This document shows positions 681 through 22,008 of a stretch of DNA of 31,009 nt, piece after piece. This DNA comes from Planococcus antarcticus DSM 14505. GTDB taxonomy: Bacteria > Bacillota > Bacilli > Bacillales_A > Planococcaceae. Every line of letters begins with the position of its first letter. Position 1 is the first letter of the stretch. Where the stretch lies: positions 1 to 31,009 of the forward strand of contig NZ_CP016535.2 of the NCBI RefSeq assembly GCF_001687565.2, given 5' to 3'. A program made the translations under genes and the position numbers. The notes beneath the pieces are model-generated. The model saw nothing but the letters and a program-made list of their open reading frames with translations. It did not search any database and had not been told where the DNA came from.

Positions 681-721
681 TAAGATTCCCCTTTCATTAA
701 TATCACAATATATTTGGAAGT

Positions 722-753: not shown

Positions 754-758
754 AAAAC

Positions 759-3337: not shown

Positions 3338-3483
3338 TGCCTCAAACCTGAGGCATGATTGAAATAACGTGCCTCAACTCTGAGGCAAATAGCAAAAACC
3401 TCTCTAAAAGCGAAGGAATTTACCCGAATAACGTGCCTCAATTCTGAGGCATTTCCCAAATTGGCTGCCTCAAATCTGAGGCA
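3338..3483. repeat. Phased array of four TGCCTCA-N4-TGAGGCA dyads
   Basis: Perfect 18-bp dyads at 3338-3355, 3370-3387, 3434-3451 and 3466-3483, with centres AACC, ACTC, ATTC and AATC. Starts are spaced 32, 64 and 32 bp, about three helical turns per step with one slot empty. All sites therefore face the same side of the DNA. This is typical of cooperative binding by one protein, as in plasmid centromeres or operators. Confidence 0.92.
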
Positions 3484-3512
3484 AATAGACAAAAAGACGT
3501 CCCCATGAAAAC

Positions 3513-3839: not shown

Positions 3840-4994
3840 TTATGAGGTGGGCAGATTTTTTTTTGTTTGCTTTCCTTTTTTTTCGGCCAATTTTTTCAGC
3901 ACTTGCTCTTTCTCTTTGGCGAGTTCGGGATTCGGTTCGGCAGCTTCTTGGGGTTCGTTTCTGGACGTGAACCAGTCCGGCAGTTTCTCTTGCCGTCCGG
4001 TTGGGCGTTCCTTCATCGGCTGCAAATCGGCGAACGTAATGTGTCCTCCAGTTTCATGGATCTCCCAGGCAGAAGTGATTTTGGATTTGATGAACCCTAA
4101 AGGGTTTTTGACGCTTTTTTCTTCGTTAACATAGCGAATTAGCATTTCCAATTCTAATTCCGCTTGATCGGAGAAAATAACTAACGCTCCCTGATACAAT
4201 TGACTGAAATAAATATTGTCGAATTGATAACCATTTGCCAACGCATTTAAACGATAACGAATTTCCTCGTTATCCGCTTGTTCAGATACCCGTTTTGATT
4301 CAGGTAATTTAATTTCTTTTTCGACTGAACGCTTTATCGAAAACTCTATTTTTTCAACTCTACGACCTTTTTTGATTTCCTTGTACTCCACAAAAAGATC
4401 AGTGTGCTCATTCAATTCATCAATCGAAGGTAATAAAATTTTATTTTTAAAATTACCGTAAAGTGAATATGCCTTGCTATTGGAACCCATTTTTTCTCTA
4501 AGAGAATCCACTGGACATTCCCATTTTCCAAGATGCTGCCATTTTTTCATCAGTTCATAGAGTCGTATAGTATAGCCACTTTTCAAAGATAATATATTGC
4601 TCAATCTGTAAGAAGTAAAGGCAGTTTTCAACTGTAATAAGTAAGGTTTAAGATACGGGGAAAATGATAATTCAATCGTTCCTTCTCCTTCTATATAACG
4701 CTGACTTGCTACCCAATTGGTTGTAACAAATCCTTTTTCATCAGGGATAAAAAGAGTTTTTTCTTGTAACCTCAAAGCGACCTCTTTAATTTCTTCATAT
4801 TTTGCATGACCTTTCAGACCCAGCATTTCGCTAAATTCATGAATTGAAATACTGTATTCTTTGAAATCTTTATCATCCGGCTGAATCATGGAGACCATAG
4901 TAAGAATAATTTTTTGTTCTCTTGCTGATAAAGTCTTTACATGCCTAGCTTCAATTAGTTTATTTGATTGAGTAACCATATGTTTTTCGTTCAT
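3840..4994 (-). CDS. rep: Replication initiator, Rep_3 family
   Basis: Initiator protein that binds the iterons upstream of its own gene and opens the origin for theta-type replication. The 384-residue reading starts at the ATG at 4994, nine bases after AAGGGAG; a TTG further up would overlap that ribosome site. The N-terminal part (about 6-240) has the Rep_3 layout: NKLIEARHVKTLSAREQK at the start of the first winged-helix domain, then LSFSPYLKPYLLQL and LKSGYTIRLYELMKKW leading into the second. Residues about 250-330 form a second conserved-looking block, and the tail is basic (KKLAEKKGKQTKKN). Five 21-22-bp iterons lie 145 bases upstream, as usual for this class. The stop is followed by the repeat-rich non-coding block. 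Confidence 0.93.
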   Translation of the reverse strand: MNEKHMVTQSNKLIEARHVKTLSAREQKIILTMVSMIQPDDKDFKEYSISIHEFSEMLGLKGHAKYEEIKEVALRLQEKTLFIPDEKGFVTTNWVASQRYIEGEGTIELSFSPYLKPYLLQLKTAFTSYRLSNILSLKSGYTIRLYELMKKWQHLGKWECPVDSLREKMGSNSKAYSLYGNFKNKILLPSIDELNEHTDLFVEYKEIKKGRRVEKIEFSIKRSVEKEIKLPESKRVSEQADNEEIRYRLNALANGYQFDNIYFSQLYQGALVIFSDQAELELEMLIRYVNEEKSVKNPLGFIKSKITSAWEIHETGGHITFADLQPMKERPTGRQEKLPDWFTSRNEPQEAAEPNPELAKEKEQVLKKLAEKKGKQTKKNLPTS

Positions 4995-5138
4995 TTCTCT
5001 CTCTCCCTTCAATTAAATATTACCTTTATTTTTTTTTTAATAAATTAAATATTACTTTTAAATTTAAAGTAATAGTAAATAATATAATATCAATAAAAAA
5101 CATTGTTGCAAAGCTATTATTATAAATTATATGATTAA

Positions 5139-5916: not shown

Positions 5917-6483
5917 TTACAATCGAAATGTTTTCAAATTGCTTTCGATTTGCTCGTCCGTGATGCCAATGTAACGCAAGGTAATTTGCGGATGGGCATG
6001 ATTCAAGATATTCTGCAGCTCGGCAATGTCTTTAAACTGCTTGTAATGCCAATAGCCAAATGTTTTGCGCAATGTATGCGTACCGATGCCCATGGAGATA
6101 TCGACCATCTGTGCGGCTTTCTGAAGCTGTCTGTAGGCTTGAACGCGTGTAATCGGTCCAATTCCCTTCCGACTTGGAAAAAGCCACTGAGCGCCCTCTA
6201 ACGTGCGAATATAGGCATCTAGTTCGTCGTAGATGTTGCCGAGGTGAATGGTTCGGCGTTTGCCGGTTTTGCCTTCCCGTAACGACACCACGTGCTTGCC
6301 CTGAATCTCGCTGGTTTTGATGGCTAACAGATCCCCAACCCGCAGCCCGGAATTGATGCCGAGAAGAAACAGGATGTAGTCCCGTTCGCCGCACCACTTC
6401 TTCAGGCTCCATTTCATGTCTTCGATCCGGTCCAGTGACCGGATCGGCTGGACGTCTTTAATTTCACGCTGCTTATTTCGCAT
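5917..6483 (-). CDS. Tyrosine recombinase, catalytic domain only (188 aa)
   Basis: Site-specific DNA recombinase that would cut and rejoin DNA through a tyrosine-3'-phosphate. The start is the ATG at 6483, after AGAGGTG; the upstream TTG would overlap that site. All catalytic residues are visible: Arg48 (GLRVGD), Lys72 (REGKTGK), His136 and Arg139 (HTLRKT), His162 (LNHAHP) and Tyr171 (TLRYIG). At 188 residues it lacks most of the N-terminal core-binding domain of XerC/XerD-type enzymes (about 300 residues). It lies 24 bases after the 126-aa membrane protein and is probably co-transcribed. It could resolve plasmid multimers or act on the nine 32-bp palindromes whose 12-8-12 layout fits such enzymes; no direct evidence links them. 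Confidence 0.92.
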   Translation of the reverse strand: MRNKQREIKDVQPIRSLDRIEDMKWSLKKWCGERDYILFLLGINSGLRVGDLLAIKTSEIQGKHVVSLREGKTGKRRTIHLGNIYDELDAYIRTLEGAQWLFPSRKGIGPITRVQAYRQLQKAAQMVDISMGIGTHTLRKTFGYWHYKQFKDIAELQNILNHAHPQITLRYIGITDEQIESNLKTFRL

Positions 6484-6507
6484 GGTTCGCACCTCTTTCA
6501 AGACTTC

Positions 6508-6888
6508 TTATTGGTCAAAGGGCAGACGTGGATCTTCGTCTTTGTAAATGGAATACATGGTTCCAGCGCTTTTCATGGCAGAACAGTCCGTATCAGCACA
6601 AGCAAAAATATGGGTTTGTGTATCCGTGTAAACATTTACACCAAAGTAATAGGGAAATGCGCCACCTTTTGACGTGTCCATGCCTCTGTCGATTGCAATG
6701 ATTTTCTCCTTGCCGGCAATCGTTTGGTAATCCGTGCTTTCCACCGTTTTCAGGACCATTTCGCTTAACGCGATTTCTTCCTCCGCTGTCGGTTGGGTTC
6801 CTCGTTTAACGAGAAGCCAATCCCCGAACACAAATAAATTAACACCTAAACTAACAATCACTAATCCTACCAGCAACTTCTTTTTCAT
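6508..6888 (-). CDS. Membrane-anchored extracytoplasmic protein (126 aa), unknown
   Basis: ATG at 6888 after AAAGGGG. Residues 1-26 (MKKKLLVGLVIVSLGVNLFVFGDWLL) form a signal anchor. The rest is a soluble outside domain with Cys96 and Cys101 (ACADTDCSAM), close enough for a disulfide or metal site. No lipobox is seen. The sequence PYYFGVNVYTDTQTHIFACADTDC looks like a beta-rich fold, but I recognise no family. It lies directly upstream of the recombinase gene, so the two may be one operon. Confidence 0.78.
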   Translation of the reverse strand: MKKKLLVGLVIVSLGVNLFVFGDWLLVKRGTQPTAEEEIALSEMVLKTVESTDYQTIAGKEKIIAIDRGMDTSKGGAFPYYFGVNVYTDTQTHIFACADTDCSAMKSAGTMYSIYKDEDPRLPFDQ

Positions 6889-7124
6889 AAATGCTTTTCC
6901 CCTTTATGGTCGTTTCTGTTTTCTCACAATGAATTGTTGTAAAGTTTGTGTTTAATTGGGTAAATACCGTATGTAGCGAACTACTCAAGGCATTTCGATC
7001 AAAAGAAAAAGAGCGCCGTCAACTAAAAACGAGCCCAGTAGAATCAAGGATTTGAATGTATCTTTTTTTCTAGTAAAATCAGTTTCGCTGGTTTTTCTTA
7101 GGAAGTCAATGGAATCGGGGATTT
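6889..7124. other. Intergenic region with a duplicated half-site
   Basis: GAATCAAGGATTTGAATGTATC at 7041-7062 and a copy with three changes at 7112-7133 form a direct repeat 71 bp apart. The second copy runs into palindrome c; the first carries only the left half (GAATGTATCTTT). This may be the scar of a lost site. Confidence 0.6.
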
Positions 7125-7156
7125 GAATGTAACATAATTAGTATTAAGTTACATTC
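7125..7156. repeat. 32-bp palindromic site c (12-8-12)
   Basis: GAATGTAACATA, centre ATTAGTAT, TAAGTTACATTC. The left arm has A instead of T at position 10, giving one mismatch between arms. Confidence 0.92.
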
Positions 7157-7194
7157 AAATTTAACAAAAAGTCTCAAAAAATGATTCGTAAAAG

Positions 7195-7440
7195 TTAGTA
7201 ACTCGGAGAGTAGATCCTGCCGGTATCCGTATCCAAGACAAAATCAACTTCTATATCCGCTGAATACGGAATTTGATCAAAGTTATGAAGCCGGCAAAAC
7301 ACATTGGCAAAGTCACGAGTCTCAAAAGTTAATTGGTCTGCTTGTCGATACATCTGCCTCAATTGCTGCTTGGAACATTTTTTACCGGTCAATAAGGCTT
7401 GGTTGAAGTAACCGTCAATTTCAATAATCATCATGATCAC
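7195..7440 (-). CDS. 81-aa protein of unknown function in its own cassette
   Basis: Starts at GTG 7440 or, more likely, one of the two ATGs at 7434 and 7431; none has a good ribosome site, and a 7-bp inverted repeat (7442-7458) sits where one would be. The protein is cytoplasmic-looking, without signal or helix, and ends FVLDTDTGRIYSPSY. It contains ALLTGKKCSKQQLRQMYRQADQ, probably a helical pair. I believe similar proteins with the DTDTGRIYSP ending occur on Bacillales plasmids and phages, but I cannot name a family. It is the sole gene between palindromes c and d. Confidence 0.7.
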   Translation of the reverse strand: MIMMIIEIDGYFNQALLTGKKCSKQQLRQMYRQADQLTFETRDFANVFCRLHNFDQIPYSADIEVDFVLDTDTGRIYSPSY

Positions 7441-7441
7441 G

Positions 7442-7458
7442 GCTGGTTGCTAACCAGC
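7442..7458. promoter_or_regulatory. Inverted repeat at the start of the 81-aa gene
   Basis: GCTGGTT-gct-AACCAGC, 7-bp perfect arms, ending two bases before the GTG codon. It takes the place of the expected ribosome site, so it may be a translational hairpin or an operator. Confidence 0.5.
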
Positions 7459-7527
7459 TATATAGCTTAAATTTTCATTACTTTCCTTTTTCCTATGTTA
7501 CTAGAATTAAGATAAATCAAGTACTTC

Positions 7528-7559
7528 GAATGTAACTTAATTGCTATTAAGTTACATTC
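7528..7559. repeat. 32-bp palindromic site d (12-8-12)
   Basis: GAATGTAACTTA, centre ATTGCTAT, TAAGTTACATTC. Perfect arms; counting the complementary ends of the centre, the dyad is 14-4-14. Confidence 0.95.
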
Positions 7560-7714
7560 ATTTTCATAGTAAATAAGTTATTTTGAAAGTAGATATTTCA
7601 ATTTACAAAATAATACTTTTTTAGTCAAAAATGTATTATTTACAAAATTTTTTATTAGATATATTGTAAAAAAGTACTATATAAATCAGGGAATTAGAAG
7701 GGGGAAAGAGAAAG

Positions 7715-8689
7715 ATGAAGAAATTTTATTTAAATGCAATAGCTATAGTCTTTATGCTTAGTTTTTTAGGTGTAAACACTACTTTTGCCGAAGAACCTAT
7801 TACTGAGACAGAGGATGTTTTTTTCGAGGAGCTTGTTACACCGGTAAGTCTTAGTTTAACAAATAAAAATGAGTTAAGAGATTTAGGTTTTACTGAAGAA
7901 GAATTGACTACCATGACTAACGATGAATTCGGAAAATACAAAGAATTAGATGGAGAACTTACTCAAAAAACTAATCATTTTTATGAAGTTACTACAGATT
8001 TATACGAAAGAACCACGGTATTAGAAATCACTGAAAAAGAAGCATTAGATAGAGTTGGGCCACTTGTTAACACAACGCCAACTACTGTGATTCCACCAAG
8101 TCTTGGTGGAATCACAGTAGTTAAACCGCCAATCTCTACTATGTCTATTCAGCCTACTACATCCACCACGTCTACTTCTTCCACAAGTAGTACGGTCAAA
8201 ACTAGTTGGTTTAAAATGACTACTACGTCATCAAAGCTCTCTAATGGAAATGTACTATTAAAGAATTCATTTGTTTGGTTAAAGAGCCCTAATGCTCAAT
8301 TTACAGATGTAGTTGGAATCACTCATTCTGCAAGTGCTGTTAAGGTTCCTGGAACTGAAGGATTTTCTTACAAATATACTGACGGCAAAGGCGTTCATAC
8401 TTTAGGTTCTAAAAGTACAAGCAGAAATAGTTATGGGATAGCAAAAAAGTTTAATTTGAAAGCAATTGGTACAAATATTCCTCCATATAACCATAATGGA
8501 TATATATCTGTTCAAGTTAAAAAAGGTAATAAAAATGACATTAGAGCGAATGCTTATGGTCATTATACTCATTTAACTGCTGGATTTACTGGTACTGCTT
8601 CTATTGGTTTGACACCTGGTAGTATGTCAGTAGGCTGGGGAGCAAAAGAATCAAGAATGCCTAATACAATGATTTTATTTAACTACTAG
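7715..8689 (+). CDS. Large secreted protein with Thr/Ser-rich linker (324 aa)
   Basis: ATG after AAGGGGG, with a candidate promoter TTAGAT-N17-TATATA upstream. Residues 1-25 are a signal peptide, likely cut after TTFA. Residues 26-115 are acidic and helical (NELRDLGFTEEELTTMTNDEF), like a pro-region. Residues about 116-165 are a Pro, then Thr/Ser-rich linker (TTSTTSTSSTSST). The C-terminal domain (about 165-324) is Gly/Ser/Thr-rich with YKYTDGKGVHTLGSKSTSRNSYG and NAYGHYTHLTAGFTG, probably beta-rich, and ends SVGWGAKESRMPNTMILFNY. No family recognised. It converges on the membrane-anchored 185-aa gene in the same cassette (d to e), so the two may be partners. The linker coding region contains a 43-bp perfect palindrome. 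Confidence 0.85.
   Translation: MKKFYLNAIAIVFMLSFLGVNTTFAEEPITETEDVFFEELVTPVSLSLTNKNELRDLGFTEEELTTMTNDEFGKYKELDGELTQKTNHFYEVTTDLYERTTVLEITEKEALDRVGPLVNTTPTTVIPPSLGGITVVKPPISTMSIQPTTSTTSTSSTSSTVKTSWFKMTTTSSKLSNGNVLLKNSFVWLKSPNAQFTDVVGITHSASAVKVPGTEGFSYKYTDGKGVHTLGSKSTSRNSYGIAKKFNLKAIGTNIPPYNHNGYISVQVKKGNKNDIRANAYGHYTHLTAGFTGTASIGLTPGSMSVGWGAKESRMPNTMILFNY
8080..8122. repeat. 43-bp perfect palindrome inside a coding region
   Basis: Two 21-bp arms, AACTACTGTGATTCCACCAA plus G and its exact reverse complement, separated by one T at 8101. It encodes TTVIPPSLGGITVV at the border between the pro-like region and the Thr/Ser linker. Present identically in both plasmid copies. Confidence 0.93.
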
Positions 8690-8719
8690 AAAATCTGCTG
8701 TCTTTTTCTGCCTATTATG

Positions 8720-9277
8720 CTATTCACTTAATGGAGCAATTATATTTTGGCCTTCGTCATAAAGCGTTACATTAGGAAGAAAAGTTGACTTTAAATCACT
8801 TGGCAGTTTTTCATATACTAAAAAAGTTTCGTCTTTAGAAACAGTAGATGTAAAACTAAAATTTTCTTCTGCAGATTCAGCAATTATATGATCAATTTGT
8901 AAGTCTGGGTTTTTTCCAACTAGGATTCCATACATCCCTTTATTCGTTTTGAGATCCTGGTAAGAAGCAATGTTAGTCCCCCATCCAGATTGTTCAATTT
9001 TGTACTTCCCATTCCATCCTTTAAGCAAATGAGTATAACCAATATTTTTATCTGCTGTTTCAAATAATGCGATATAAGAATTGGTATCATCGATTTGAGT
9101 TACTTTTAAGATATCAAATTTTATTTCTTTTTCATTTCCTTTATTGTGCCATTCCATCAAATTAGCCTCGATGGATGCCCTTTCATCTTCAATAGAATAT
9201 TGATTAAAATAAAATAAAGTATAACCAAAACCAATAACCATAATGAATAAAATAACATACAACACTTTTTTTCTCAC
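8720..9277 (-). CDS. Membrane-anchored extracytoplasmic protein (185 aa), unknown
   Basis: GTG start at 9277, eight bases after GAAGGGG. Residues 1-25 (KKVLYVILFIMVIGFGYTLFYF) form a signal anchor with no lipobox. The rest is an extracytoplasmic domain with alternating hydrophobic strands (EIKFDILKVTQIDDTNSYIALFET; YTHLLKGWNGKYKIEQSGWGT). I do not recognise the family; such plans occur in small extracytoplasmic binding or immunity-type proteins, which is only analogy. It is convergent with the 324-aa secreted protein, 30 bases apart, in the same palindrome-bounded cassette. Confidence 0.8.
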   Translation of the reverse strand: MRKKVLYVILFIMVIGFGYTLFYFNQYSIEDERASIEANLMEWHNKGNEKEIKFDILKVTQIDDTNSYIALFETADKNIGYTHLLKGWNGKYKIEQSGWGTNIASYQDLKTNKGMYGILVGKNPDLQIDHIIAESAEENFSFTSTVSKDETFLVYEKLPSDLKSTFLPNVTLYDEGQNIIAPLSE

Positions 9278-9480
9278 TTTTTTCGCCCCTTCATCATAAA
9301 AAGTATCTTCAATTATCTGGTAATAGCTAATATTATATCAAGTATTATCAAGTAAAGTTCAGTTTTCAAAAATTTTCAATTTGGAATTTTACATATCCCC
9401 TTTTTGCTCATTGGAGCCTCCCAAATGCCTGAAAAATAAATAGAAACTTGCTGTATATTTTTACTGTGAAATCCAGTTAT
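9278..9480 (-). promoter_or_regulatory. Upstream region of the 185-aa gene
   Basis: On the minus strand, ACTTGATA occurs twice 11 bp apart, and the second copy runs into TATAAT (about 9331-9336). This gives a plausible -10 box with a weak GAACTT -35 box 17 bases upstream. The rest up to palindrome e shows nothing else I can name. Confidence 0.4.
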
Positions 9481-9512
9481 GAATGTAACTTAATTACTAT
9501 TAAGTTACATTC
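9481..9512. repeat. 32-bp palindromic site e (12-8-12)
   Basis: GAATGTAACTTA, centre ATTACTAT, TAAGTTACATTC; perfect arms. Confidence 0.95.
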
Positions 9513-9551
9513 AGTTGAAGTAGAAATTTTCTTAAAAGCCTGCTAACAACC

Positions 9552-9857
9552 TTAGAAACGTTCCCCTTTTTTTCCGAGCAAAACAGCTAATACCACAAAG
9601 ATATAAGGGTAAGAGAGAAGCGTCAATTCGAGAAATCCATACCCAAATAACATTGCTGTCGCCTGTTCATCCGAATAATAACCAGCGCCAACCATATAAG
9701 TTCCAAGCAACAAATAACTTCCGATTGATAAAATAGTGAAAAAAAGTCCAATTATATTTAATTTGAATTTGAAGAGCGTATAAAGCAAAACAGGTACATA
9801 GATCAGCCCTAATATAAGCAAAAATCCGAAAATATATAACGGTTCAAAGACATCCAT
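9552..9857 (-). CDS. Three-helix membrane protein (101 aa), sole gene of its cassette
   Basis: ATG at 9857 after AAAAGGAG. Hydrophobic segments lie at about 8-29, 34-55 and 69-94, with a short acidic loop YYSDEQAT (60-67) between the second and third. The C-terminus is GKKGERF. No family recognised. It is the only gene between palindromes e and f. The other copy is at 25053-25358 and is identical in length. Confidence 0.75.
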   Translation of the reverse strand: MDVFEPLYIFGFLLILGLIYVPVLLYTLFKFKLNIIGLFFTILSIGSYLLLGTYMVGAGYYSDEQATAMLFGYGFLELTLLSYPYIFVVLAVLLGKKGERF

Positions 9858-10010
9858 TTTCTTTTCTCCTTTTAGCAACCTAGTTTTCTCAGGTATTTTT
9901 AGCAGCTACAAAACCCTGCCATTGATATTAATAACAACGACTGGGGCTTACAAAAGTTTCCATTCAAAGAGAATTGATAGATAAAATGATTCTACTTTAC
10001 TGGCGGATGT

Positions 10011-10042
10011 GAATGTAACTTAATTAGCATTAAGTTACATTC
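10011..10042. repeat. 32-bp palindromic site f (12-8-12)
   Basis: GAATGTAACTTA, centre ATTAGCAT, TAAGTTACATTC; perfect arms. Confidence 0.95.
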
Positions 10043-10056
10043 AAAATCAATAAAAC

Positions 10057-10103
10057 GACTACCGTAGTCTATAAATTTATGTTTATTCAACTACCGGTAG
10101 TTG
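10057..10103. repeat. Pair of ACTACCGGTAGT palindromes (one damaged)
   Basis: CAACTACCGGTAGTTG at 10088-10103 is intact. The partner near 10057 reads GACTACCGTAGTC, one G short of the copy at 25561. The pair looks like a double operator, though no gene start is adjacent. Confidence 0.65.
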
Positions 10104-10134
10104 ATTATTTTCTTACGATTCTAGGAGAATAATG

Positions 10135-10172
10135 AAAAAGGGCAAGCAAGAGATTCCCTTGCCTCCTTTTTT
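10135..10172. terminator. Probable bidirectional terminator
   Basis: AAAAAGGGCAAG ... CTTGCCTCC then a T run; stem GGCAAG/CTTGCC flanked by A and T runs. It lies 78 bases downstream of the XRE-membrane regulator gene on its strand. Confidence 0.6.
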
Positions 10173-10249
10173 GAACCTAGTTCTATGCTTTCACCTTCAA
10201 TTTCTTCCTAAGTTCTTCCTAGCGTTCATGTGCCGCTAAGATTTAAGAA

Positions 10250-10810
10250 TTAATTGAAAAGAGACAAGCTCAAAAACGTTAATATCCCGGAAATCAACCA
10301 AACAAATGACGATCAAAGTTTTGAAGTAGAGATGGGTTTTTCTACTCTTGTCTCTTTCTTCGCCTGAAAGTTTTCGTCCTTCCTGGAAAGCCAAAATTTC
10401 TTATATGTTTTAAATCATGCTTCTTTTTAATCTTCTCGATTTTGATGGCTGCATACAGGCAGCATAAGAACAAAGCCAATGAAATAAGCAGTCCCTTTTT
10501 TCCGGCTAAACTAAGCATCGGGCCAACTGAAATTACGAGAGAAATGCGAATAGTAAATGGAGGTTGACCATTTGTTCATCTGAGCATTTTGAATTTCATT
10601 TTTCATGATCTCGACATCCCCTTTGACTAAATCGTCTAAGGATACGGCAAAAAGAACACTCATCAGCAGCAAATTGTGGATGTCCGGATAGCTTCGTTTC
10701 ATTTTCCCAATTGGAAATGGTTTGTCGTGAGATATAAAGTTTTTCCGCTAATTCTTCTTGGGAAAGCTGTTCTCTGGTTCGGTATTTTTTAATTTGTTTG
10801 CTGAGGTTAT
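10250..10810 (-). CDS. XRE-family regulator with membrane domain, copy 1 (broken by indels)
   Basis: Same gene as 25760-26324, described there. Here the start codon lacks its C (ttat instead of ttcat at 10807-10810), and there is an extra T near 10691 and other small changes. This copy keeps the CCCC run near 10617 and the CCC run near 10496 that the other copy lacks. Joining the two gives one 188-residue protein. Confidence 0.75.
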
Positions 10811-10884
10811 TTTACTCGCTCCTTCTAATTCGAGAGTAGTTAAAAATGATGGGGTGCTATCAAAACTTTTTATCATCAAGTGAT

Positions 10885-10897
10885 TTGACCGTGTCAA
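10885..10897. promoter_or_regulatory. TTGAC-cgt-GTCAA operator candidate
   Basis: A perfect 5-3-5 dyad between the XRE regulator (leftward) and the secreted protein gene (rightward). It is flanked by two TTTATCAT motifs. The spacing suits an XRE-type dimer. Confidence 0.45.
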
Positions 10898-11229
10898 AGA
10901 TCTTTATCATGCCTATCATCCTACTACACGAAGGGATCGGCACAACATCTGTAATTTTACTCCTTTTGTTATTTTTCTCTTATTCTTCCCTCGTTTAGCC
11001 CACAAGAAAGTCCGAATTACGATAAAATACAGCAATTTTAAAGGTTTTTTCAGAGTTAAGAAGGCAGAGAAAGTTAAAAGAAAAGTAGCTTTTTGTGTTT
11101 TTGTTTGATAATTCACTTAAATTCCCTGGTTCTTTTATTCCTTTTTAAGTAAAAATGTTATTTAAAGTGGAAGACGGGAACGTATTTCATAAGATCGAAA
11201 ATAACATTATTACAGGAAGGGGTTTTTTT

Positions 11230-11711
11230 ATGAAATCTATGAATGTAAATCAGGTACCTTTTTCGATTCAAAAACTTTTAGTGGTAACAGTGGCTTTCTT
11301 AATGGTTTTTAGCTTTGCTTTTTCCTCCGTTGGACAAGCCCAGGCGATTGAGAATGACAACGAACGAATTACGAATGCTCTTGAAGATACATTGGCATAT
11401 GAAAATGACGCATATATTTTTGACCGTGAACGAGCAATGACAATGGATTAACGGTAGAAGAAGCGAATATACTTGAAGAAAGTATAAGTGAAAATACAGA
11501 TCAGGTAGGTGTATTGATCCTTCCGGTTCTAGCGATTCCTCCTGCAGTTGCAGCCGTAGCGAAAGCAGCAGCAGCTGGTGGTGCAGCAGTTGTAGCAGGT
11601 GCCTTTATGCTTGATGTTTACAACACAAGTACGTATACAGCGTGTCAGAATTTTTATGGACAAAATGGCGTGATTGATAATTTCTGTGAAGCGACGGGAC
11701 ATATAGATTAG
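11230..11711 (+). CDS. Secreted bacteriocin-like precursor (160 aa after correction), copy 1
   Basis: ATG at 11230, seven bases after AGGAAGGGG. This copy has a single base loss near 11437 (GCAATGAC instead of GCAATTGAC). Restoring it from the other copy gives 160 residues: a signal peptide 1-39 (LLVVTVAFLMVFSFAFSSVGQAQA), an acidic segment 40-93 (ENDNERITNALEDTL ... EEANILEESISENTD), a hydrophobic Ala/Gly-rich stretch 94-128 (VLAIPPAVAAVAKAAAAGG) and a C-terminal part with Cys139 and Cys153. The plan matches the 167-aa protein at 15363. I infer a precursor whose hydrophobic C-terminal part is the active piece; the family is not recognised. It is followed 22 bases later by a 55-aa membrane protein and faces an XRE-membrane regulator. 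Confidence 0.7.
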
Positions 11712-11733
11712 AATGGAAAGTGGAGGTGTTACG

Positions 11734-11900
11734 ATGAACAACAGTCATTTTTCTGCAGTTGAACGAATAGAAACCATGCTTACCGAAGTTTCATTTCTGA
11801 AATTGATATTGGTTGTTGTCCCTGTCTCTATGGCGGAACGTTACTGTATGCGGTCTCCAGTGATTTCTTTGCTACACTGACGTACACTTTTTTTAGATAA
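11734..11900 (+). CDS. Small membrane protein downstream of the secreted precursor, copy 1 (one base lost)
   Basis: Same gene as 27250-27417. A C is missing near 11834 (ATGGCGGAACG instead of ATGGCCGGAACG), which breaks the frame after about residue 34. The start ATG and the GGAGG ribosome site are intact. Confidence 0.7.
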
Positions 11901-11964
11901 AGACTCTCAGCAACAAAATAAAAGAGTGGATCCCACCTTCTCGAAAGACAGGGTTCTACAGATT

Positions 11965-11999
11965 AAAAGCCGCATCCTGTAAAGGATACGGCTTTTTTT
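11965..11999 (+). terminator. Rho-independent terminator after the precursor operon
   Basis: AAAAGCCGcATCC, loop tgtaaa, GGATaCGGCTTTTTTT: a nine-pair stem with one internal mismatch and a long T run, 65 bases after the 55-aa gene. Confidence 0.9.
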
Positions 12000-12072
12000 C
12001 TTTCGATAAAGGAATTCATTAGTTTTTCGTTTGATCGTTGAAAAGTGAAGGGAGACATAGGCTACATTTTAA

Positions 12073-12101
12073 TTGAGTTAGAAAAGGAAAAAGTATATAT
12101 T
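12073..12101 (+). promoter_or_regulatory. Promoter of toxin-antitoxin pair 1
   Basis: TTGAGT, 17-bp spacer, TATATT. Just downstream is a direct repeat GAAAGTAC GAAAGTAC (12105-12120), a likely operator for the AbrB-type antitoxin. The matching promoter of pair 2 is at 13328-13356. Confidence 0.7.
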
Positions 12102-12162
12102 TAAGAAAGTACGAAAGTACGATTTTATCAAAGTGATACAAAAATGAAAGGTGGTTAATCGG

Positions 12163-12480
12163 ATGCCAAAACTTCAGGAACGTTTACCGGACAACGGCGT
12201 GGCCAAGCATGTCCGTTTGCGGAACAAAGGCCAGATAACGATTCCCAACGAAATACTGGAACAGTTAGAGTTAACCGCAAATACCAATCTCAAAGTGACC
12301 GTGGTAGACGGACGGATCGTCCTGATTCCGATGATTGAAATCGCGAAAGACCAGGCTTGGTATTGGACCGAAACGTGGCAGCAAGACGAAAAAGAAGCCC
12401 AGCAGGAGATCGACAAGGGGCAAACCAGTGGACCATTGGCCGTAGAAGATGCGCTTGCCTGGTTGGAGGAAGAGGAATGA
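12163..12480 (+). CDS. AbrB/MazE-type antitoxin, pair 1 (105 aa)
   Basis: DNA-binding antitoxin that would neutralise the toxin encoded next and repress the operon. The start is the ATG at 12163 after AAAGGTGG. Residues about 18-60 form a swapped-hairpin AbrB domain: VRLRNKGQITIPNEILEQLELTANTNLKVTVVDGRIVLIP, with the family hallmark KGQITIP. Residues 61-105 are acidic (WYWTETWQQDEKEAQQEIDKGQ ... EDALAWLEEEE), the part expected to wrap the toxin. The stop is 13 bases before the toxin start. Its twin at 13416-13733 is almost identical in protein sequence, so the operon was duplicated. Confidence 0.9.
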   Translation: MPKLQERLPDNGVAKHVRLRNKGQITIPNEILEQLELTANTNLKVTVVDGRIVLIPMIEIAKDQAWYWTETWQQDEKEAQQEIDKGQTSGPLAVEDALAWLEEEE

Positions 12481-12493
12481 AGGTGACCGTTGC

Positions 12494-12768
12494 TTGTTTG
12501 AACTAGAGATTACGAATAAATTCAAGAAATCCTATAAAAAGTTTCACAAAAATGAACAACGGGCCGTTAGCGAGACCATTAAGCTCTTGGCAGCTGCACC
12601 ACCTTTTCAACCTTCCCTGAGAACCAAGCGTATTGAAGGGACGAAAGCCATTTTTGAAGCAAGTGCCAATATGGATATCCGAATATCCTGGGAATACAGC
12701 CAGACAGCTGAACAAACATTGATTTTACGGAACTGTGGACACCACGATGATTTACTAAGAAACCTTAA
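12494..12768 (+). CDS. RelE/ParE-superfamily toxin, pair 1 (91 aa after correction)
   Basis: Probable mRNA-cleaving toxin. The start is TTG at 12494, nine bases after AAGGTGA. Hallmarks are ITNKFKKSYKKFHKNEQ (helix 1), LAAAPPFQPSLRTKRIEG (basic strand) and the closing ILRNCGHHDDLLRN, where the GHHDD histidines resemble the YafQ/RelE active-site end. In this copy one C is missing near 12764, so the frame runs past the natural stop; the copy at 28010 and pair 2 both end in RNP. The low-efficiency TTG start suits a toxin that must be made in less amount than its antitoxin. Confidence 0.85.
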
Positions 12769-12785
12769 AAGAATAACTCATGAAG

Positions 12786-12812
12786 AAAGCCCTCCAGCAA
12801 TGGAGGGCTTTT
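12786..12812 (+). terminator. Terminator of toxin-antitoxin pair 1
   Basis: AAAGCCCTCC-agcaa-TGGAGGGCTTTT, the same hairpin as after the 167-aa secreted protein. The T run is followed directly by palindrome g. Confidence 0.9.
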
Positions 12813-12844
12813 GAACGTAACTTATTTGCTATTAAGTTACATTC
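12813..12844. repeat. 32-bp palindromic site g (12-8-12)
   Basis: GAACGTAACTTA, centre TTTGCTAT, TAAGTTACATTC. The left arm has C at position 4, the only copy with this change. Confidence 0.92.
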
Positions 12845-13007
12845 AAACTGCTAGAAATTAATGAAATCTGAGTGCCAGATATTGCACCTATTAATATTAA
12901 TTAGTGTTTTTTCTAACTCAGACAAATACCGATCTACTGCTTTCAATAAAATATTGTTGGTGTCAAACTAGGTCACTTTGAGATTGAAATCAAAAGATAA
13001 AGGAGTA

Positions 13008-13193
13008 TCAAGATTTATTGTTCATTTTTACTTTTTTGACTGCATTGAAATTGAGATAAATAGTGTATCCAACAGCTATGAACAAAAGTATAATTCCATA
13101 ACCAATCTCTAGATTCAACCAATATACAGATACTATTAACGTTATGGCGACAATGAAGAGCAATTGTAGGCTTGATCGATGATACTTATTCAT
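13008..13193 (-). CDS. Small two-helix membrane protein (61 aa)
   Basis: ATG at 13193, six bases after GAGGTGG; an upstream GTG would lie inside that ribosome site. Helices lie at about 8-26 and 31-50, with a loop NLEIGYG and a basic tail VKKVKMNNKS. The plan and the E-I-x-aromatic loop match the 57-aa and 56-aa proteins of other cassettes. It is the only gene between palindromes g and h. Bases 12845-13007 show no gene, only short AT-rich dyads. Confidence 0.72.
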   Translation of the reverse strand: MNKYHRSSLQLLFIVAITLIVSVYWLNLEIGYGIILLFIAVGYTIYLNFNAVKKVKMNNKS

Positions 13194-13257
13194 TGTTTTC
13201 CACCTCACTTTTCTTTTGATTATTTATATACTGGAATGACCACTAAATCTCAGAACT

Positions 13258-13289
13258 GAATGTAACATAATTACCATTATGTTACATTC
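13258..13289. repeat. 32-bp palindromic site h (12-8-12), with compensatory change
   Basis: GAATGTAACATA, centre ATTACCAT, TATGTTACATTC. Both arms carry the T-to-A type change at the same paired position, so perfect symmetry is kept. Confidence 0.95.
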
Positions 13290-13327
13290 AAAATGGATAT
13301 AATCCCTCTCTATTTTAACCATTTTAA

Positions 13328-13356
13328 TTGAATTAAGAAGAAGGAAAGTATATATT
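13328..13356 (+). promoter_or_regulatory. Promoter of toxin-antitoxin pair 2
   Basis: TTGAAT, 17-bp spacer, TATATT, followed by GAAAGTAAGAAAGTT, a weaker version of the direct repeat in front of pair 1. Confidence 0.7.
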
Positions 13357-13415
13357 TAAGAAAGTAAGAAAGTTGGATTTTATTAAATTATACGAGATTG
13401 GAAGGGGTGTATCGA

Positions 13416-13733
13416 ATGCCAAAACTTCAAGAACGTCCAAAGGACAACGGCGTGGCCAAGCATGTCCGTTTGCGGAACAAAGGGCAGATTACGATTCCCA
13501 ACGAAATACTGGAACAGCTGGAGTTAACCGCGAATACCAATCTCAAAGTGACCGTGGTAGACGGACGGATCGTCCTGATTCCGATGATTGAAATCGCGAA
13601 AGACCAGGCTTGGTATTGGACCGAAACGTGGCAGCAAGACGAAAAAGAAGCCCAACAGGAGATCGACAAAGGGCAAACCAGTGGACCATTGGCGGTAGAA
13701 GATGCGCTTGCCTGGTTAGACGAAGAGGAATGA
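13416..13733 (+). CDS. AbrB/MazE-type antitoxin, pair 2 (105 aa)
   Basis: Paralogue of the antitoxin at 12163, differing at only a few residues (ERPKD for ERLPD near the start, DEEE for EEEE at the end). The ATG follows GGAAGGGG. The AbrB domain KGQITIPNEILEQLEL and the acidic toxin-binding tail are unchanged, so cross-binding between the two pairs is likely. Nucleotide identity is high over the whole operon, with many silent changes, which points to an older duplication rather than an assembly effect. Confidence 0.9.
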   Translation: MPKLQERPKDNGVAKHVRLRNKGQITIPNEILEQLELTANTNLKVTVVDGRIVLIPMIEIAKDQAWYWTETWQQDEKEAQQEIDKGQTSGPLAVEDALAWLDEEE

Positions 13734-13746
13734 AGGTGACCGTTGC

Positions 13747-14022
13747 TTGTTTGAACTAGAAATCACGAATAAATTTAAGAAATCCTATAAAAAGTTTCAC
13801 AAAAATGAGCAAAAGGCCGTCAGTGAGGCCCTTAAGCTCTTGGCAGCTGCACCACCTTTTCAACCTTCTCTGAGAACCAAGCGTATTGAGGGGACGAAAT
13901 CCATCTTTGAAGCCAGTGCTAATATGGATACTCGGATTTCGTGGGAATACAGCCAGACAGCTGAACAAACGCTAATTTTGCGCAATTGTGGTCACCACGA
14001 CGATTTACTAAGAAACCCTTAA
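13747..14022 (+). CDS. RelE/ParE-superfamily toxin, pair 2 (91 aa)
   Basis: Intact in this copy: TTG start after AAGGTGA, 91 residues ending LLRNP. Compared with pair 1 it has QKAVSEALKL for QRAVSETIKL and SIFEASANMDTR for AIFEASANMDIR. The basic centre (SLRTKRIEGTK) and the GHHDD end expected for RNase-type toxins are kept. It converges on the third toxin-antitoxin pair. Confidence 0.88.
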   Translation: MFELEITNKFKKSYKKFHKNEQKAVSEALKLLAAAPPFQPSLRTKRIEGTKSIFEASANMDTRISWEYSQTAEQTLILRNCGHHDDLLRNP

Positions 14023-14041
14023 AAAACAAGAAGTCATGAAG

Positions 14042-14068
14042 AAAGCCCTCCAGCAATGGAGGGCTTTT
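14042..14068 (+). terminator. Terminator of toxin-antitoxin pair 2
   Basis: Same hairpin as at 395 and 12786. Unlike those, it is followed by GAAGCTGG rather than GAATGTAAC, so the 32-bp palindrome is absent here and the match to pair 1 stops after GAA. Confidence 0.9.
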
Positions 14069-14088
14069 GAAGCTGGATAAAATCCAAC

Positions 14089-14119
14089 AAAAAGCCATCC
14101 TAAGCAAAGGATGGCTTTT
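14089..14119 (-). terminator. Terminator of toxin-antitoxin pair 3
   Basis: AAAAAGCCATCC-taagcaa-AGGATGGCTTTT; a symmetric stem with A and T runs on both sides, so it can stop transcripts from either side. It ends next to the stop of the pair 3 toxin. Confidence 0.88.
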
Positions 14120-14120
14120 A

Positions 14121-14435
14121 TCAGTTGCCTAGATACCGTTTTAATTCCATATAAAAATTTTCGCGTGTCCCCAGCAATACAACCAGAACCAGTTCGCCCT
14201 CTTCATTTTCTCGTAGGGCATAACACAGCTCATAATTGATGCCTCTGTGATGAAGGTCCAAGCAGGAATAGCCTTTTAAATCCCCTTTTTTCGCTTCGCC
14301 AATGGCCGGATCCTTACGGATGCTCGTAATGGCTTCGCCCATTTTCCGATAGAGGACTTGATCGGACTTCTTGATCTTTTTTAACTCTTTTCCAGCTCGT
14401 TTGCTGAGCTGAACCGGCAACAAGTCTTCACTCAT
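14121..14435 (-). CDS. RelE-type toxin, pair 3
   Basis: Toxin of the RelE/ParE superfamily. I choose the ATG at 14435, whose ATGAGTGA overlaps the antitoxin stop; in-frame ATGs at 14447 and 14444 are too close to the GGAGG. The protein opens EDLLPVQLSKRAGKELKKIKKSDQ, has the strand pair GDLKGYSCLDLHHRGINYELCYAL and ends VVLLGTRENFYMELKRYL, with the GTRENFY motif near the end typical of Bacillales RelE/YoeB-like proteins. The sequence is unrelated to the toxins of pairs 1 and 2 beyond the fold. Confidence 0.88.
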   Translation of the reverse strand: MSEDLLPVQLSKRAGKELKKIKKSDQVLYRKMGEAITSIRKDPAIGEAKKGDLKGYSCLDLHHRGINYELCYALRENEEGELVLVVLLGTRENFYMELKRYLGN

Positions 14436-14832
14436 CTTCTTCATCATCCTCCAGAGCGTCTAAATAGTCGTCTAAACTTCCCTGGATGACAGGCTGAGCC
14501 ATCGTTTCCTGTTCCAATGCTTGCAGGGCTGTTGGAATGTGGGCTTTGATTTTCTTAAATTCTTGCAACAACTCTTGTCCAGAAAGACCTTGAGCGATTA
14601 AGTCTTGTAAAATATCTGCAGAGAAATCGACTTCTTCGAATGTGGCAGGCCGGATGATGATCTCTGTCCCTGTAAATTCCATGACGGCTTCATCGGTGAG
14701 TCCAAGAGCCAGGTAAAAATCTTTGGGGATGCTCAGTTGTCGTTGCTGCGAAACACGTACCCGTCTTTTGGCTTTTTTTCCGGGCTTCAGTCCGTGTTCA
14801 GACGCTCTTTTTTTCGGCATAGTAGCACTCAT
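14428..14832 (-). CDS. AbrB-like antitoxin, pair 3 (134 aa)
   Basis: ATG at 14832 after TAGGAGTG. The N-terminus is basic (MPKKRASEHGLKPGKKAKRR), then VRVSQQRQLSIPKDFYLALGLTDEAVMEFTGTEIIIRP forms the AbrB-type hairpin (about 22-60), followed by a helical region and a very acidic end (LDDYLDALEDDEEDE) that should bind the basic toxin. The stop overlaps the toxin start. A 12-bp inverted repeat directly upstream (14848-14883) is a good autoregulation site. Confidence 0.87.
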   Translation of the reverse strand: MSATMPKKRASEHGLKPGKKAKRRVRVSQQRQLSIPKDFYLALGLTDEAVMEFTGTEIIIRPATFEEVDFSADILQDLIAQGLSGQELLQEFKKIKAHIPTALQALEQETMAQPVIQGSLDDYLDALEDDEEDE

Positions 14833-14847
14833 TAGTTTCACTCCTAA

Positions 14848-14888
14848 CTTTAAAATAAAATTATTTATTAATTTATTTTAAAGTATAT
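14848..14888 (-). promoter_or_regulatory. Promoter and operator of pair 3
   Basis: CTTTAAAATAAA (14848-14859) and TTTATTTTAAAG (14872-14883) are exact 12-bp inverted arms around 12 AT bases. On the minus strand an extended -10 box TG-a-TATACT overlaps the far arm (14883-14888), so a protein on the dyad would block transcription. Confidence 0.65.
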
Positions 14889-14972
14889 CACTTTCTTAGA
14901 AGGAATGAACGTTCAAAGTACTGTAAGATTCCGGCTTTTAACGACTTGCTGAAGACTGTAAAAAAGAAAAGT

Positions 14973-15004
14973 GAATGTAACTTAACTGCTATTAAGTTAC
15001 ATTC
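14973..15004. repeat. 32-bp palindromic site i (12-8-12)
   Basis: GAATGTAACTTA, centre ACTGCTAT, TAAGTTACATTC; perfect arms. Confidence 0.95.
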
Positions 15005-15047
15005 ACTCCAATGAATAAATGTAATTATTTACTTACTTTATTGTAAT

Positions 15048-15075
15048 TTGAATCTATATGTTATCGTAATATATA
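15048..15075 (+). promoter_or_regulatory. Promoter of the 57-aa membrane protein gene
   Basis: TTGAAT, 16-bp spacer, TATATA, 38 bases before the start codon. Confidence 0.55.
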
Positions 15076-15113
15076 AATAAGATTTTTATATATCAATATC
15101 GGAGGTGATCTCA

Positions 15114-15287
15114 ATGAAAATGAGCCACTTACTAATTACATTAATTAGTGTCGTTCTTGTTTTTATCCTGATAAGTAGTGTGCAAGACGAAATTACCTGG
15201 CCATTATTAATTCTATTATTAGTAGTGGGATTTGTAATAAACTTTTTTATCTCTTTATTATCACATAAGAAAAAAAATAGTAATTAA
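15114..15287 (+). CDS. Small two-helix membrane protein (57 aa)
   Basis: ATG at 15114, eight bases after GGAGG. Helix 1 covers about 5-23 (LLITLISVVLVFILISSV), then the loop QDEITWP, helix 2 about 30-50 and a basic tail SHKKKNSN. It lies just before, and in the same direction as, the 167-aa secreted Gly/Ala-rich protein, within the cassette i to a. Its loop and plan match the 56-aa protein on the other side of palindrome a. A dedicated immunity role is an attractive guess because small two-helix proteins often protect producers of membrane-active peptides; nothing in the sequence proves it. Confidence 0.75.
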   Translation: MKMSHLLITLISVVLVFILISSVQDEITWPLLILLLVVGFVINFFISLLSHKKKNSN

Positions 15288-15297
15288 TTTTACATTT

Positions 15298-15327
15298 TTG
15301 ACTTTTTTTATTTAAAAAAAGTATAAT
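15298..15327 (+). promoter_or_regulatory. Promoter of the 167-aa secreted protein gene
   Basis: TTGACT, 18-bp spacer, TATAAT: the best sigma-A type promoter in the window, 35 bases before the start codon. Confidence 0.8.
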
Positions 15328-15362
15328 TATGGTTATTACTTAGAAATAAGGAGATGATTTGG

Positions 15363-15866
15363 ATGTTATTTGAGAAAAATAAGTTCAGTATATTTACGAT
15401 TATTACTTGTTTAGTAATGATGGTTAGTATTTTATGGACACCACAGAATACTCAGGCTGCTAGTTTAAATGTGGATGAGGTAGCTAGGATTACTTCGGAA
15501 TATCTTGTATTGAATGAAAAAGATGGCACAGTAATTATCGAAAGAGAAGTAGAATTGGAATCTCGAATTGGTAAAGAATATTTTAATGAGTTAGTACAAA
15601 CCTTAGAAAAACTTAATGAAGTTTTAGCAAGTCCAGAAGGTGAGGAGTACAAAAAAGAAATAATAGAAGAAGCAAACTCGAATGTTGTGTCGATGGCCAG
15701 AATAAGTGGCTGTGGGGCTGCAACCCTTGCTGGTTTTGCACATACTGGAGCCTTTACTGGGCTTATGACAGTTGCAGGTGTTAGTGGTCCAGCAGGATGG
15801 GCCTTAGGTACTGCTGTTGGCGGGGTATGGCTAGCAGGGAGTGTGGCAGCTGGTTGTTTAAAATAA
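15363..15866 (+). CDS. Secreted Gly/Ala-rich bacteriocin-like precursor (167 aa)
   Basis: ATG at 15363, nine bases after AAGGAG; the in-frame ATG at 15354 abuts that site. Residues 1-32 are a signal peptide (FTIITCLVMMVSILWTPQNTQA, likely cut before ASLN). Residues 33-108 are charged and helical (VARITSEYLVLNEKDG ... EEANSN). Residues 112-167 are hydrophobic and Gly/Ala-rich without charge from about 115 until the final Lys, with Cys117 and Cys165 at its two ends (ISGCGAATLAGF ... VAAGCLK). A disulfide would close this segment into a loop. I infer a Sec-exported precursor that releases a membrane-active C-terminal peptide; known precedents for long precursors of this kind include halocin C8. 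No family is recognised. Confidence 0.82.
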   Translation: MLFEKNKFSIFTIITCLVMMVSILWTPQNTQAASLNVDEVARITSEYLVLNEKDGTVIIEREVELESRIGKEYFNELVQTLEKLNEVLASPEGEEYKKEIIEEANSNVVSMARISGCGAATLAGFAHTGAFTGLMTVAGVSGPAGWALGTAVGGVWLAGSVAAGCLK

Positions 15867-15896
15867 TTTATAGATTAAATACTGAGACTTATAATC

Positions 15897-15924
15897 AAAA
15901 GCCCTCCAGCAATGGAGGGCTTTT
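15897..15924 (+). terminator. Terminator of the secreted protein gene, copy 2
   Basis: Identical to 395-422, again abutting palindrome a. Confidence 0.9.
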
Positions 15925-15956
15925 GAATGTAACTTACTTCACAAAAAGTTACATTC
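15925..15956. repeat. 32-bp palindromic site a, copy 2
   Basis: Identical to 423-454. Confidence 0.9.
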
Positions 15957-16223: not shown

Positions 16224-16255
16224 GAATGTAACTTAACTGCACATAAGTTACATTC
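16224..16255. repeat. 32-bp palindromic site b, copy 2
   Basis: Identical to 722-753. Confidence 0.92.
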
Positions 16256-16260: not shown

Positions 16261-16818
16261 CTAGTCTTTGTCCCAAAACTTCCACTTGGATTTTGCCGGG
16301 ACTTTTTTCAATTCGTCCAGATCGGTTTGCAGCTGTTGGACGATGGCCAACAATTGTTCTTCCCGTTCCTGGCTCTTTTTCAATTCGGTTTTCATGTCCT
16401 CAAGCACTTCTGTGTGGTCTACCGGATCCGTTAATTGTTGTTTTGGCTGCTGTTCCATAAGTTGCTGCAGCTCGTTGATTTTTTGGTTCTGACCTATTAG
16501 TAATTCAACAATTTGGTTGAGAGACTGTGGAGCAACCACTAAATCCGTGTCTAGACGCTTTACTTCTCCCCCGAACCGTTCCAAGAGGTTGGTTTCCACT
16601 TCTTCAAAGTCCGTCCGCTTGATTCCTTTTGCTCGCTGAGCTTGAATCGTCTGGGCAATCAGCTGGATGCGCTCTACTTGTTCTTCCGTATAAACCCGTT
16701 GTTGATTCTGTCTAGGGTCTTTCACGACCTCTCCTAGCCAATCCCGTTTTTCCCATTCCCGGAGTTGATGGGCTTCAAGATTCAGTTCTTTTACGAGCCG
16801 ACTAATCGTAATTCGCAT
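16261..16818 (-). CDS. MerR-like / DUF3967-type plasmid protein (185 aa)
   Basis: Intact copy. The ATG at 16818 follows AAGGGGTG. Residues 1-70 form a MerR-type helix-turn-helix (ITISRLVKELNLEAHQLREWEKRDWL ... RVYTEEQVERIQLI). Residues about 105-170 are rich in Gln, Glu and Leu and should form a long coiled coil (NQKINELQQLMEQQ; LKKSQEREEQLLAIVQQLQTDLDEL). The end KSKWKFWDKD is the Trp/Lys tail of DUF3967 proteins on Bacillales plasmids. The plan (HTH, coiled coil, short end) is like the single-protein partition factor Par of staphylococcal pSK1, so a role in plasmid segregation is possible; a plain regulator is the alternative. The TGCCTCA or TGGTACA dyads in the non-coding block are candidate targets. 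Confidence 0.85.
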   Translation of the reverse strand: MRITISRLVKELNLEAHQLREWEKRDWLGEVVKDPRQNQQRVYTEEQVERIQLIAQTIQAQRAKGIKRTDFEEVETNLLERFGGEVKRLDTDLVVAPQSLNQIVELLIGQNQKINELQQLMEQQPKQQLTDPVDHTEVLEDMKTELKKSQEREEQLLAIVQQLQTDLDELKKVPAKSKWKFWDKD

Positions 16819-21984: not shown

Positions 21985-22008
21985 GGTTCGCACCTCTTTC
22001 AAGACTTC

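Follow-up and report, generated by a model that had tools for sequence, protein, structure and literature searches.

We analysed a 31,009-nucleotide stretch of the Planococcus antarcticus DSM 14505 genome (NZ_CP016535.2, positions 1 to 31,009; the window), which carries a plasmid on which 32-bp palindromes with conserved arms and a variable 8-bp centre separate small groups of genes. Comparison of these palindromes with related DNA indicates that they belong to a system of cassette exchange whose sites are ordered, polar and heterospecific and whose enzyme is probably a mini tyrosine recombinase encoded on the plasmid. We consider it likely, on the sequence comparisons set out below, that the palindromes are the core recombination sites of this recombinase, which consists of a catalytic domain only, and that they bound exchangeable cassettes, with sites of like centre (label) reacting best.

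An initial annotation of the sequence had described nine 32-bp elements with nine different 8-bp centres, and we recovered all of them at the same positions. A search allowing up to three mismatches returned 18 matches in the window compared with none in 100 dinucleotide shuffles; there are 18 rather than nine because a plasmid of about 15.5 kb is present twice in tandem on contig C2, which is the window, in a genome of 3.8 Mb in 3 contigs. The two units differ by small indels (offset 15,498–15,518), and the doubling may be an assembly error or a real dimer. All nine centres share one polarity, so the sites are direct repeats. The recombinase gene, the leader and the sites are as follows, with the second-unit copy in brackets.

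5917–6501, minus strand: small tyrosine recombinase of 194 amino acids, matching PF00589 only, the proposed enzyme (21418–22002)
7054–7124, plus strand: conserved leader left of the first site, starting with the lone half-site GAATGTATC (about 22555–22625)
7125–7156, plus strand: A-type site that heads the row, with centre ATTAGTAT and one arm mismatch (22626–22657)
7528–7559, plus strand: site, centre ATTGCTAT (23029–23060)
9481–9512, plus strand: site, centre ATTACTAT (24982–25013)
10011–10042, plus strand: site, centre ATTAGCAT (25515–25546)
12813–12844, plus strand: site, centre TTTGCTAT, one arm mismatch (28329–28360)
13258–13289, plus strand: site, centre ATTACCAT, two arm mismatches (28774–28805)
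14973–15004, plus strand: site, centre ACTGCTAT (30485–30516)
423–454, plus strand: C-type site, centre CTTCACAA, one arm mismatch (15925–15956)
722–753, plus strand: D-type site that closes the row, with centre ACTGCACA (16224–16255)

The conserved arms that had been reported are perfect in five of the nine sites and carry the mismatches listed in the other four. Most sites are intergenic, as had also been claimed, but 12813 overlaps the last two bases of a listed open reading frame (ORF; 12449–12814) and 722 overlaps the TTG-start extension of a small ORF (510–755).

A search for the 32-bp pattern, as the initial annotation had proposed for Bacillales plasmids, found sites in 46 of 46 genus genomes, on plasmids and chromosomes, with 1–58 site places each (two mismatches at most). 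In family samples of 151 and then 261 genomes, the second drawn from the same family only, one genome outside the genus had more than two site places (G074, with five), and the site coordinates on its plasmid are those of P. lenghuensis. A collection scan gave at least 118 stretches; among 80 matches with titles, 79 were Planococcus/Planomicrobium and one was Gracilibacillus. The viral contigs scanned contained no exact site match. GAATGTA-N18-TACATTC occurred in 26 of 398 class genomes, 11 of them in the window's genus; each of the remaining 15 had a single match. We collected 482 distinct sites, a few of them chance-like matches from other genera; their arms are nearly invariant, positions 13–20 vary and position 15 is T in 476. 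The match in one of those 15 class genomes, which belongs to another family, is a perfect Planococcus-type site (L281, G401:C1:1218187). A Gracilibacillus contig (L135, NZ_BAVS01000052.1) has sites of the Planococcus type, and one of its cassettes matches a cassette of L194 at 97% identity; this shared cassette may reflect intergenus transfer or contamination.

Related rows part company at the sites. The breakpoint comparison that had been suggested showed 943 of 1735 in-row ends of high-scoring segment pairs within 25 bp of a site midpoint, compared with 6.7% expected by area; this count is not restricted to full-length pairs, its excess is sharpened by the arms common to all sites and, like the 137 rows considered below, it includes some loci that two collections each contributed (such as L112 and L019). 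Both flanks were dissimilar in 105 of 130 full-length homologous cassette pairs (at least 80% identity). One locus (L155) equals another (L205) minus one 571-bp cassette, with the break inside a site. In L103, a 381-bp block from an A-site to a C-site occurs in copies that are 100% identical and whose outer flanks diverge directly beyond the sites; the contig starts and ends on this block, so that two backbones were possibly joined by assembly, although the block identity and the flank difference hold. Cassettes of the window also recur from site to site elsewhere.

7157–7527, no strand: cassette with an 81-amino-acid ORF (7195–7440, minus strand), recurring site to site (7125–7559) at 95.7% in L095
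9513–10010, no strand: cassette with a small membrane-protein-like ORF (9552–9878, minus strand), recurring site to site (9481–10042) at 86.5% in L129
454–721, no strand: cassette with a small ORF (510–755, minus strand), recurring site to site (423–753) at 96.8% in L203

The recurring cassettes, the breakpoints and the single-cassette difference support the earlier proposal of a multi-site exchange that shuffles small modules. That proposal placed the rows on plasmids, where they are present, and missed that they are chromosomal too. Most cassettes of the five chromosomal rows that we inspected consist of one or two small ORFs; their cargo includes membrane-protein-like ORFs and a toxin–antitoxin-like pair, and one cassette carries an insertion sequence. 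Cassette families were built by single linkage, and a case of one row on two backbones (L191/L158) was dropped, as its right flanks are of one kind and its family (f1) was chained by single linkage.

The rows are polar and their labels ordered. A single polarity was found in 130 of 137 groups of at least two sites. Read along it, TTAnnn types (TTAGAC-like) come first, followed by TTGCTA and TTCACA, with CTGCAC last: over all rows, TTGCTA preceded TTCACA 61:4 and TTCACA preceded CTGCAC 84:5. Because some loci are counted twice, we made a subset of 53 rows that share no cassette family, in which the same comparisons gave 17:0 and 24:1, and TTAnnn preceded TTGCTA 19:5. Within this subset, 2 of 212 pairs of sites from one row had the same 6-mer centre, whereas 1000 shuffles gave a mean of 24.9 and a minimum of 13. 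The variability of the centre had been recognized at the outset; its polarity and its ordered, label-like behaviour had been missed. We conclude that, as far as sequence can show, the sites are borders where the DNA changes partner, their polarity is uniform and their labels are ordered and seldom repeated.

Many of these rows are headed by the leader, which the description of nine elements, otherwise sound, had missed at the first site. The leader is about 70 bp long and stands next to 86 of 468 sites, 80 of which are the first in their row, and next to none of 107 CTGCAC sites. It is found in plasmid and chromosomal rows.

The putative enzyme has the catalytic residues R54, K78, H142, R145, H168 and Y177, invariant in 11 aligned relatives; it thus shows the R-K-H-R-H/W-Y pattern of tyrosine recombinases, and its PF00589 match is above the cut-off. 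Its length leaves little room for the usual N-terminal domain, and the nearest NCBIfam models (XerA, XerC and XerD, then small invertases) all score far below their cut-offs. We hand-chose 18 relatives from other plasmids among 60 listed of 2173 records. In nine of the 18, a palindrome of the same layout lies 117–236 bp upstream of the gene; eight of these were found by a palindrome scan and that of Rummeliibacillus by similarity (8 of 12 arm pairs). The arms are GAATGTAACTTA in Lysinibacillus, whose enzyme is 89% identical, with near forms at 72–74% identity, and GAATGTACGATA, GAATGTATGATT, GAATGTATGAAA, GAATGTATCAAA and GAATGCAACATA beside enzymes that are 44–53% identical, which indicates that the arms vary with recombinase lineage. 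The upstream scan also gave a 10-of-12 palindrome of other sequence in B. glycinifermentans, Caldicellulosiruptor and Pseudalkalibacillus (without a GAATGTA-type site). In the eight relatives displayed, a lone second GAATGTA/TACATTC lies between site and gene in seven, in varying orientation, and is one base off in one, and several have TTGACT- and TATACT-like hexamers in between. The initial annotation had likened the palindromes to tyrosine recombinase sites; a recombinase with the catalytic residues on the plasmid, and a palindrome upstream in half of the inspected relatives, support that reading. Within the genus, a close homologue of the enzyme is present in 18 of 46 genomes, and any match at E 1e-20 in 20. 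Sites are intact in 306 of 398 cases in genomes with a close homologue compared with 201 of 338 in those without (genome-level p=0.0016).

Among records of relatives, L253 shows a second site copy far from the recombinase gene. An 81-kb Lysinibacillus capsici record (L250, NZ_CP106866.1) has six site copies about 13.5 kb apart and looks like a hexamer of one unit, annotated with cfr and lsa(B). A Bacillus velezensis plasmid (L249:60-2870) contains five CATATGCTTTA-N7-TAAAGCATATG palindromes between small genes.

A parallel row exists in Peribacillus. Four sites of one polarity lie on plasmid NZ_CP068052.1 of Peribacillus psychrosaccharolyticus; their arms are those of the enzyme lineage of that plasmid (GAATGTATGAT...), which ties the arms to the enzyme. 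Outward from the recombinase, the centres are ATTAGACA, ATTACTAT, CTTACACT and CTTGCACA. Three of the four are identical to Planococcus centres, and in both genera the TTAGAC type is first and the TGCAC type last, which suggests that the label alphabet predates both arm sets. Of the other Peribacillus plasmids, one carries three imperfect sites and two carry one.

In the mechanism we propose, the recombinase, its upstream palindrome, the lone half-site and the promoter-like hexamers would constitute an old plasmid resolution unit with a layout like that of TnpI-irs. Core-only copies of the site would have come to bound rows of small swappable cassettes in Planococcus and, in parallel, in Peribacillus. 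The enzyme would bind to the arms and exchange strands within the polar 8-bp centre, with centre identity presumably deciding which sites react. Core-only sites would recombine between replicons, probably via cointegrates, and a crossover at one label followed by another at the next would swap a cassette between replicons that share both flanking labels. Unlike neighbouring labels would protect the row from self-deletion; identical labels in one row would delete the DNA between them, which fits the rarity of repeats. We infer that the small recombinase is the acting enzyme and, by analogy with TnpI-irs, that leader and first site may together serve as a resolution site. The wider reading, to which we give an even chance, is of a natural address-coded platform: a Bacillales plasmid resolution enzyme would have given rise to heterospecific rows whose shared, ordered alphabet of centres has outlasted the divergence of arms and enzymes between Planococcus and Peribacillus, with cassettes exchanged slot by slot, as in a natural MultiSite assembly, and a leader-bearing resolution site at the head of the row.

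Several observations weigh against this interpretation. Polarity is mixed in 7 of 137 rows, and one 6-mer label occurs twice in the window's own row (7528 and 12813). At least one 6-mer label differs in 93 of the 130 full-length cassette pairs, and both labels agree in only 30% of the 27 pairs that are at least 95% identical. Only arm base 23 clearly goes with a cassette, the one on its right, whereas base 20 follows neither neighbour, a pattern that does not point to one pair of cut positions; we dropped the idea that centre bases 13 and 20 are linked to the cassette, as no such link was found at 80% identity. Seven of the 18 recombinase relatives have no such upstream palindrome and two have imperfect ones only. 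Lastly, a close homologue of the enzyme is missing from 28 of the 46 genus genomes, all of which carry sites (32 in G007, 35 in G027); these sites may be relics, may be acted on in trans by visiting plasmids or may be served by another enzyme.

The label switching bears on a possible, though less probable, account, in which exchange is site-specific but the order of labels was merely inherited from one ancestral row and labels have no role in partner choice. That the same cassette so often stands between other labels, with incomplete agreement even among the youngest pairs, is what this account would lead one to expect. However, order and non-repetition persist in the 53 rows that share no cassette family, and similar labels stand on other arms in Peribacillus. 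Agreement also rises in younger pairs: among pairs with both flanks different, both labels were kept in 14% at 80–85% identity, 14% at 85–90%, 50% at 90–95% and 30% at 95% or more (n=22, 28, 28 and 27; baseline 11%). Younger pairs thus appear to keep their labels above chance, yet label switching is common.

The genomes with sites and no close enzyme homologue would be accommodated if chromosomal XerC/XerD, as in Acinetobacter dif modules, acted at the sites in place of the plasmid recombinase. A PF00589 search gave two strong matches of about 300 amino acids, taken as XerC and XerD, in eight of eight genomes, and the arm form TATGTTAC resembles a XerD half-site. We nevertheless regard this as unlikely. 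The candidate chromosomal dif, ACTTCCGATAATATATATTATGTAAACT (L271, G000:C1:1879280-1879307), which lies near the middle of a 3.77-Mb contig and has two mismatches to the Bacillus dif, has unlike, non-symmetric arms, whereas those of the sites are symmetric. Moreover, the arms vary with the small recombinase, and the palindrome lies just upstream of its gene in half of the relatives.

Ordinary homologous recombination that uses repeated sites and leaders as short homologies is an improbable way for the cassettes to move, although one junction would suit it. On contig C4 of G001 (L087), the shared junction stretch includes 293 identical leader bases besides a site. We do not count this contig as proof that co-resident plasmids crossed over at an A-site; it is not decisive because the shared leader bases allow homologous exchange or assembly through the repeat, and the apparent cointegrate fits the proposed mechanism. 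Most breaks, by contrast, show no similarity past the 32-bp site, and recombination within a match as short as 32 bp is expected to be rare; the label order and the tie between arms and recombinase lineage would also go unexplained.

It is very improbable that the palindromes serve the MerR-type protein encoded beside the last site as its operators or partition sites. The gene adjoins the D-type site, the plasmids of several relatives have annotated MerR genes and symmetric arms suit a dimer; however, a close MerR homologue is present in 12 of 46 genomes compared with sites in 46 of 46, and nothing in an operator role would lead one to expect cassette borders, polarity, ordered centres or breakpoints. 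Least credible of all is a role as intergenic transcription terminators: the RNA hairpins fold (−12.4 to −19.6 kcal/mol, six sites folded) and two of nine sites look terminator-like in a simple, loose scan (7528 on the plus strand, 14973 on the minus strand), but seven of nine lack the G+C-rich stem with T-run, and terminators leave fixed length, polar centres, label order and breakpoints unexplained, so that on the evidence here ending transcripts would not be their main role.

The remaining features of the plasmid, whose near relatives among plasmid records are Planococcus in 14 of 15 cases, are listed below.

3840–5012, minus strand: Rep_3 replication initiator of the backbone
6508–6888, minus strand: 126-amino-acid ORF between the recombinase gene and the leader
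12151–12814, plus strand: MazE/AbrB-type antitoxin and YafQ/ParE-like toxin pair at the end of the 10011–12813 cassette
16261–16818, minus strand: MerR-type protein with a coiled-coil-like tail, adjoining the D-type site, intact in unit 2
759–1037 and 1058–1315: the MerR-type gene of unit 1, split in two

Besides the split or intact MerR-type gene, other ORFs differ likewise between the tandem units (window 1–31009). Two near-identical antitoxin–toxin units lie in consecutive cassettes (12065–12860 and 13320–14071); the second has the same terminator with no site after it, and its cassette therefore looks like a fusion. A strong hairpin, GCCCTCCAGCAATGGAGGGC, with a T-run stands directly 5′ of sites 423 and 12813 (377–425 and 12767–12815). 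The segment 15354–15866 encodes a small secreted-looking, glycine-rich protein that is bacteriocin-like by eye and has no Pfam match. A perfect hairpin with 20-bp arms is found at 8078–8124 within ORF 7715–8689, and TGCCTCA...TGAGGCA palindromes, possibly iterons, are repeated at 3338–3494 near the Rep_3 gene.

If the proposed system is real, it would represent a Gram-positive counterpart to known cassette systems, run by a very small enzyme of its own and coded by ordered labels, and another route to cassette collections. The mosaic make-up of Planococcus plasmids and chromosomal cassette rows would then be accounted for, and a small recombinase with numerous natural and perhaps orthogonal sites would become available; short synthetic sites would permit a direct test of whether gene order in nature can be set by spacer identity alone.

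Cassette shuffling by tyrosine recombinases is already known from integrons and Acinetobacter dif modules. Open-access literature searches on Planococcus plasmids, palindromes, recombinase, pdif, TnpI, Firmicutes integron-like cassettes and natural cassette exchange showed no description of this site among the records listed. The Acinetobacter dif modules share with the rows described here Rep_3 plasmids, swappable small modules (often toxin–antitoxin) and short tyrosine-recombinase sites with variable spacers. There, however, the sites are those of XerC/XerD and modules are of C and D kinds, whereas here the arms are symmetric and differ from the genome's dif candidate, rows are almost always of one polarity, centres are ordered, a leader heads the row and the enzyme is likely plasmid-borne. 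We rejected membership on the mismatch with the dif candidate and on the single polarity of 130 of 137 rows; the modules are called unique to Acinetobacter in the abstract of a 2026 paper (PMC13141974).

FimB/FimE-type invertases, like the enzyme here, are tyrosine recombinases of about 200 amino acids without the usual N-terminal domain, but the NCBIfam matches are weak (38.3 and 30.8 bits, far below cut-offs of 222 and 221) and the sites here are direct rather than inverted. TnpI-irs of Tn4430/Tn5401 combines core inverted repeats with accessory half-site motifs; these lie upstream of the gene for a tyrosine resolvase, whose promoters fall within the site (PMC7157771). The core and half-site upstream of the recombinase gene here recall that layout. 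Unlike TnpI-irs, the window and the displayed relatives have one lone half-site, which is only putatively enzyme-binding, rather than two direct repeats; the recombinase has 194 amino acids, and core copies are spread as cassette borders. No Tn3-type transposase was found among the ten window proteins scanned, a subset of its ORFs.

In engineered systems such as Cre/loxP with heterospecific lox sites, recombinase-mediated cassette exchange and MultiSite Gateway, parts stay in order because the polar spacers or overlaps that the shared arms enclose are unlike. Label order, the rarity of repeats and label agreement point only indirectly to such behaviour here, in a system that is natural and has many labels and a minimal enzyme. 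Integrons, too, have rows of one polarity in which small, promoter-poor cassettes follow a distinct first site. The sites found here, uniform 32-bp palindromes with ordered centres, do not look like attC sites, which recombine as folded single strands, and we rejected membership on the IntI model, the recombinase matching TIGR02249 at 30.0 bits against a cut-off of 265. The system works like dif modules and integrons and also resembles TnpI-irs, yet departs from each of the three in a defining feature.

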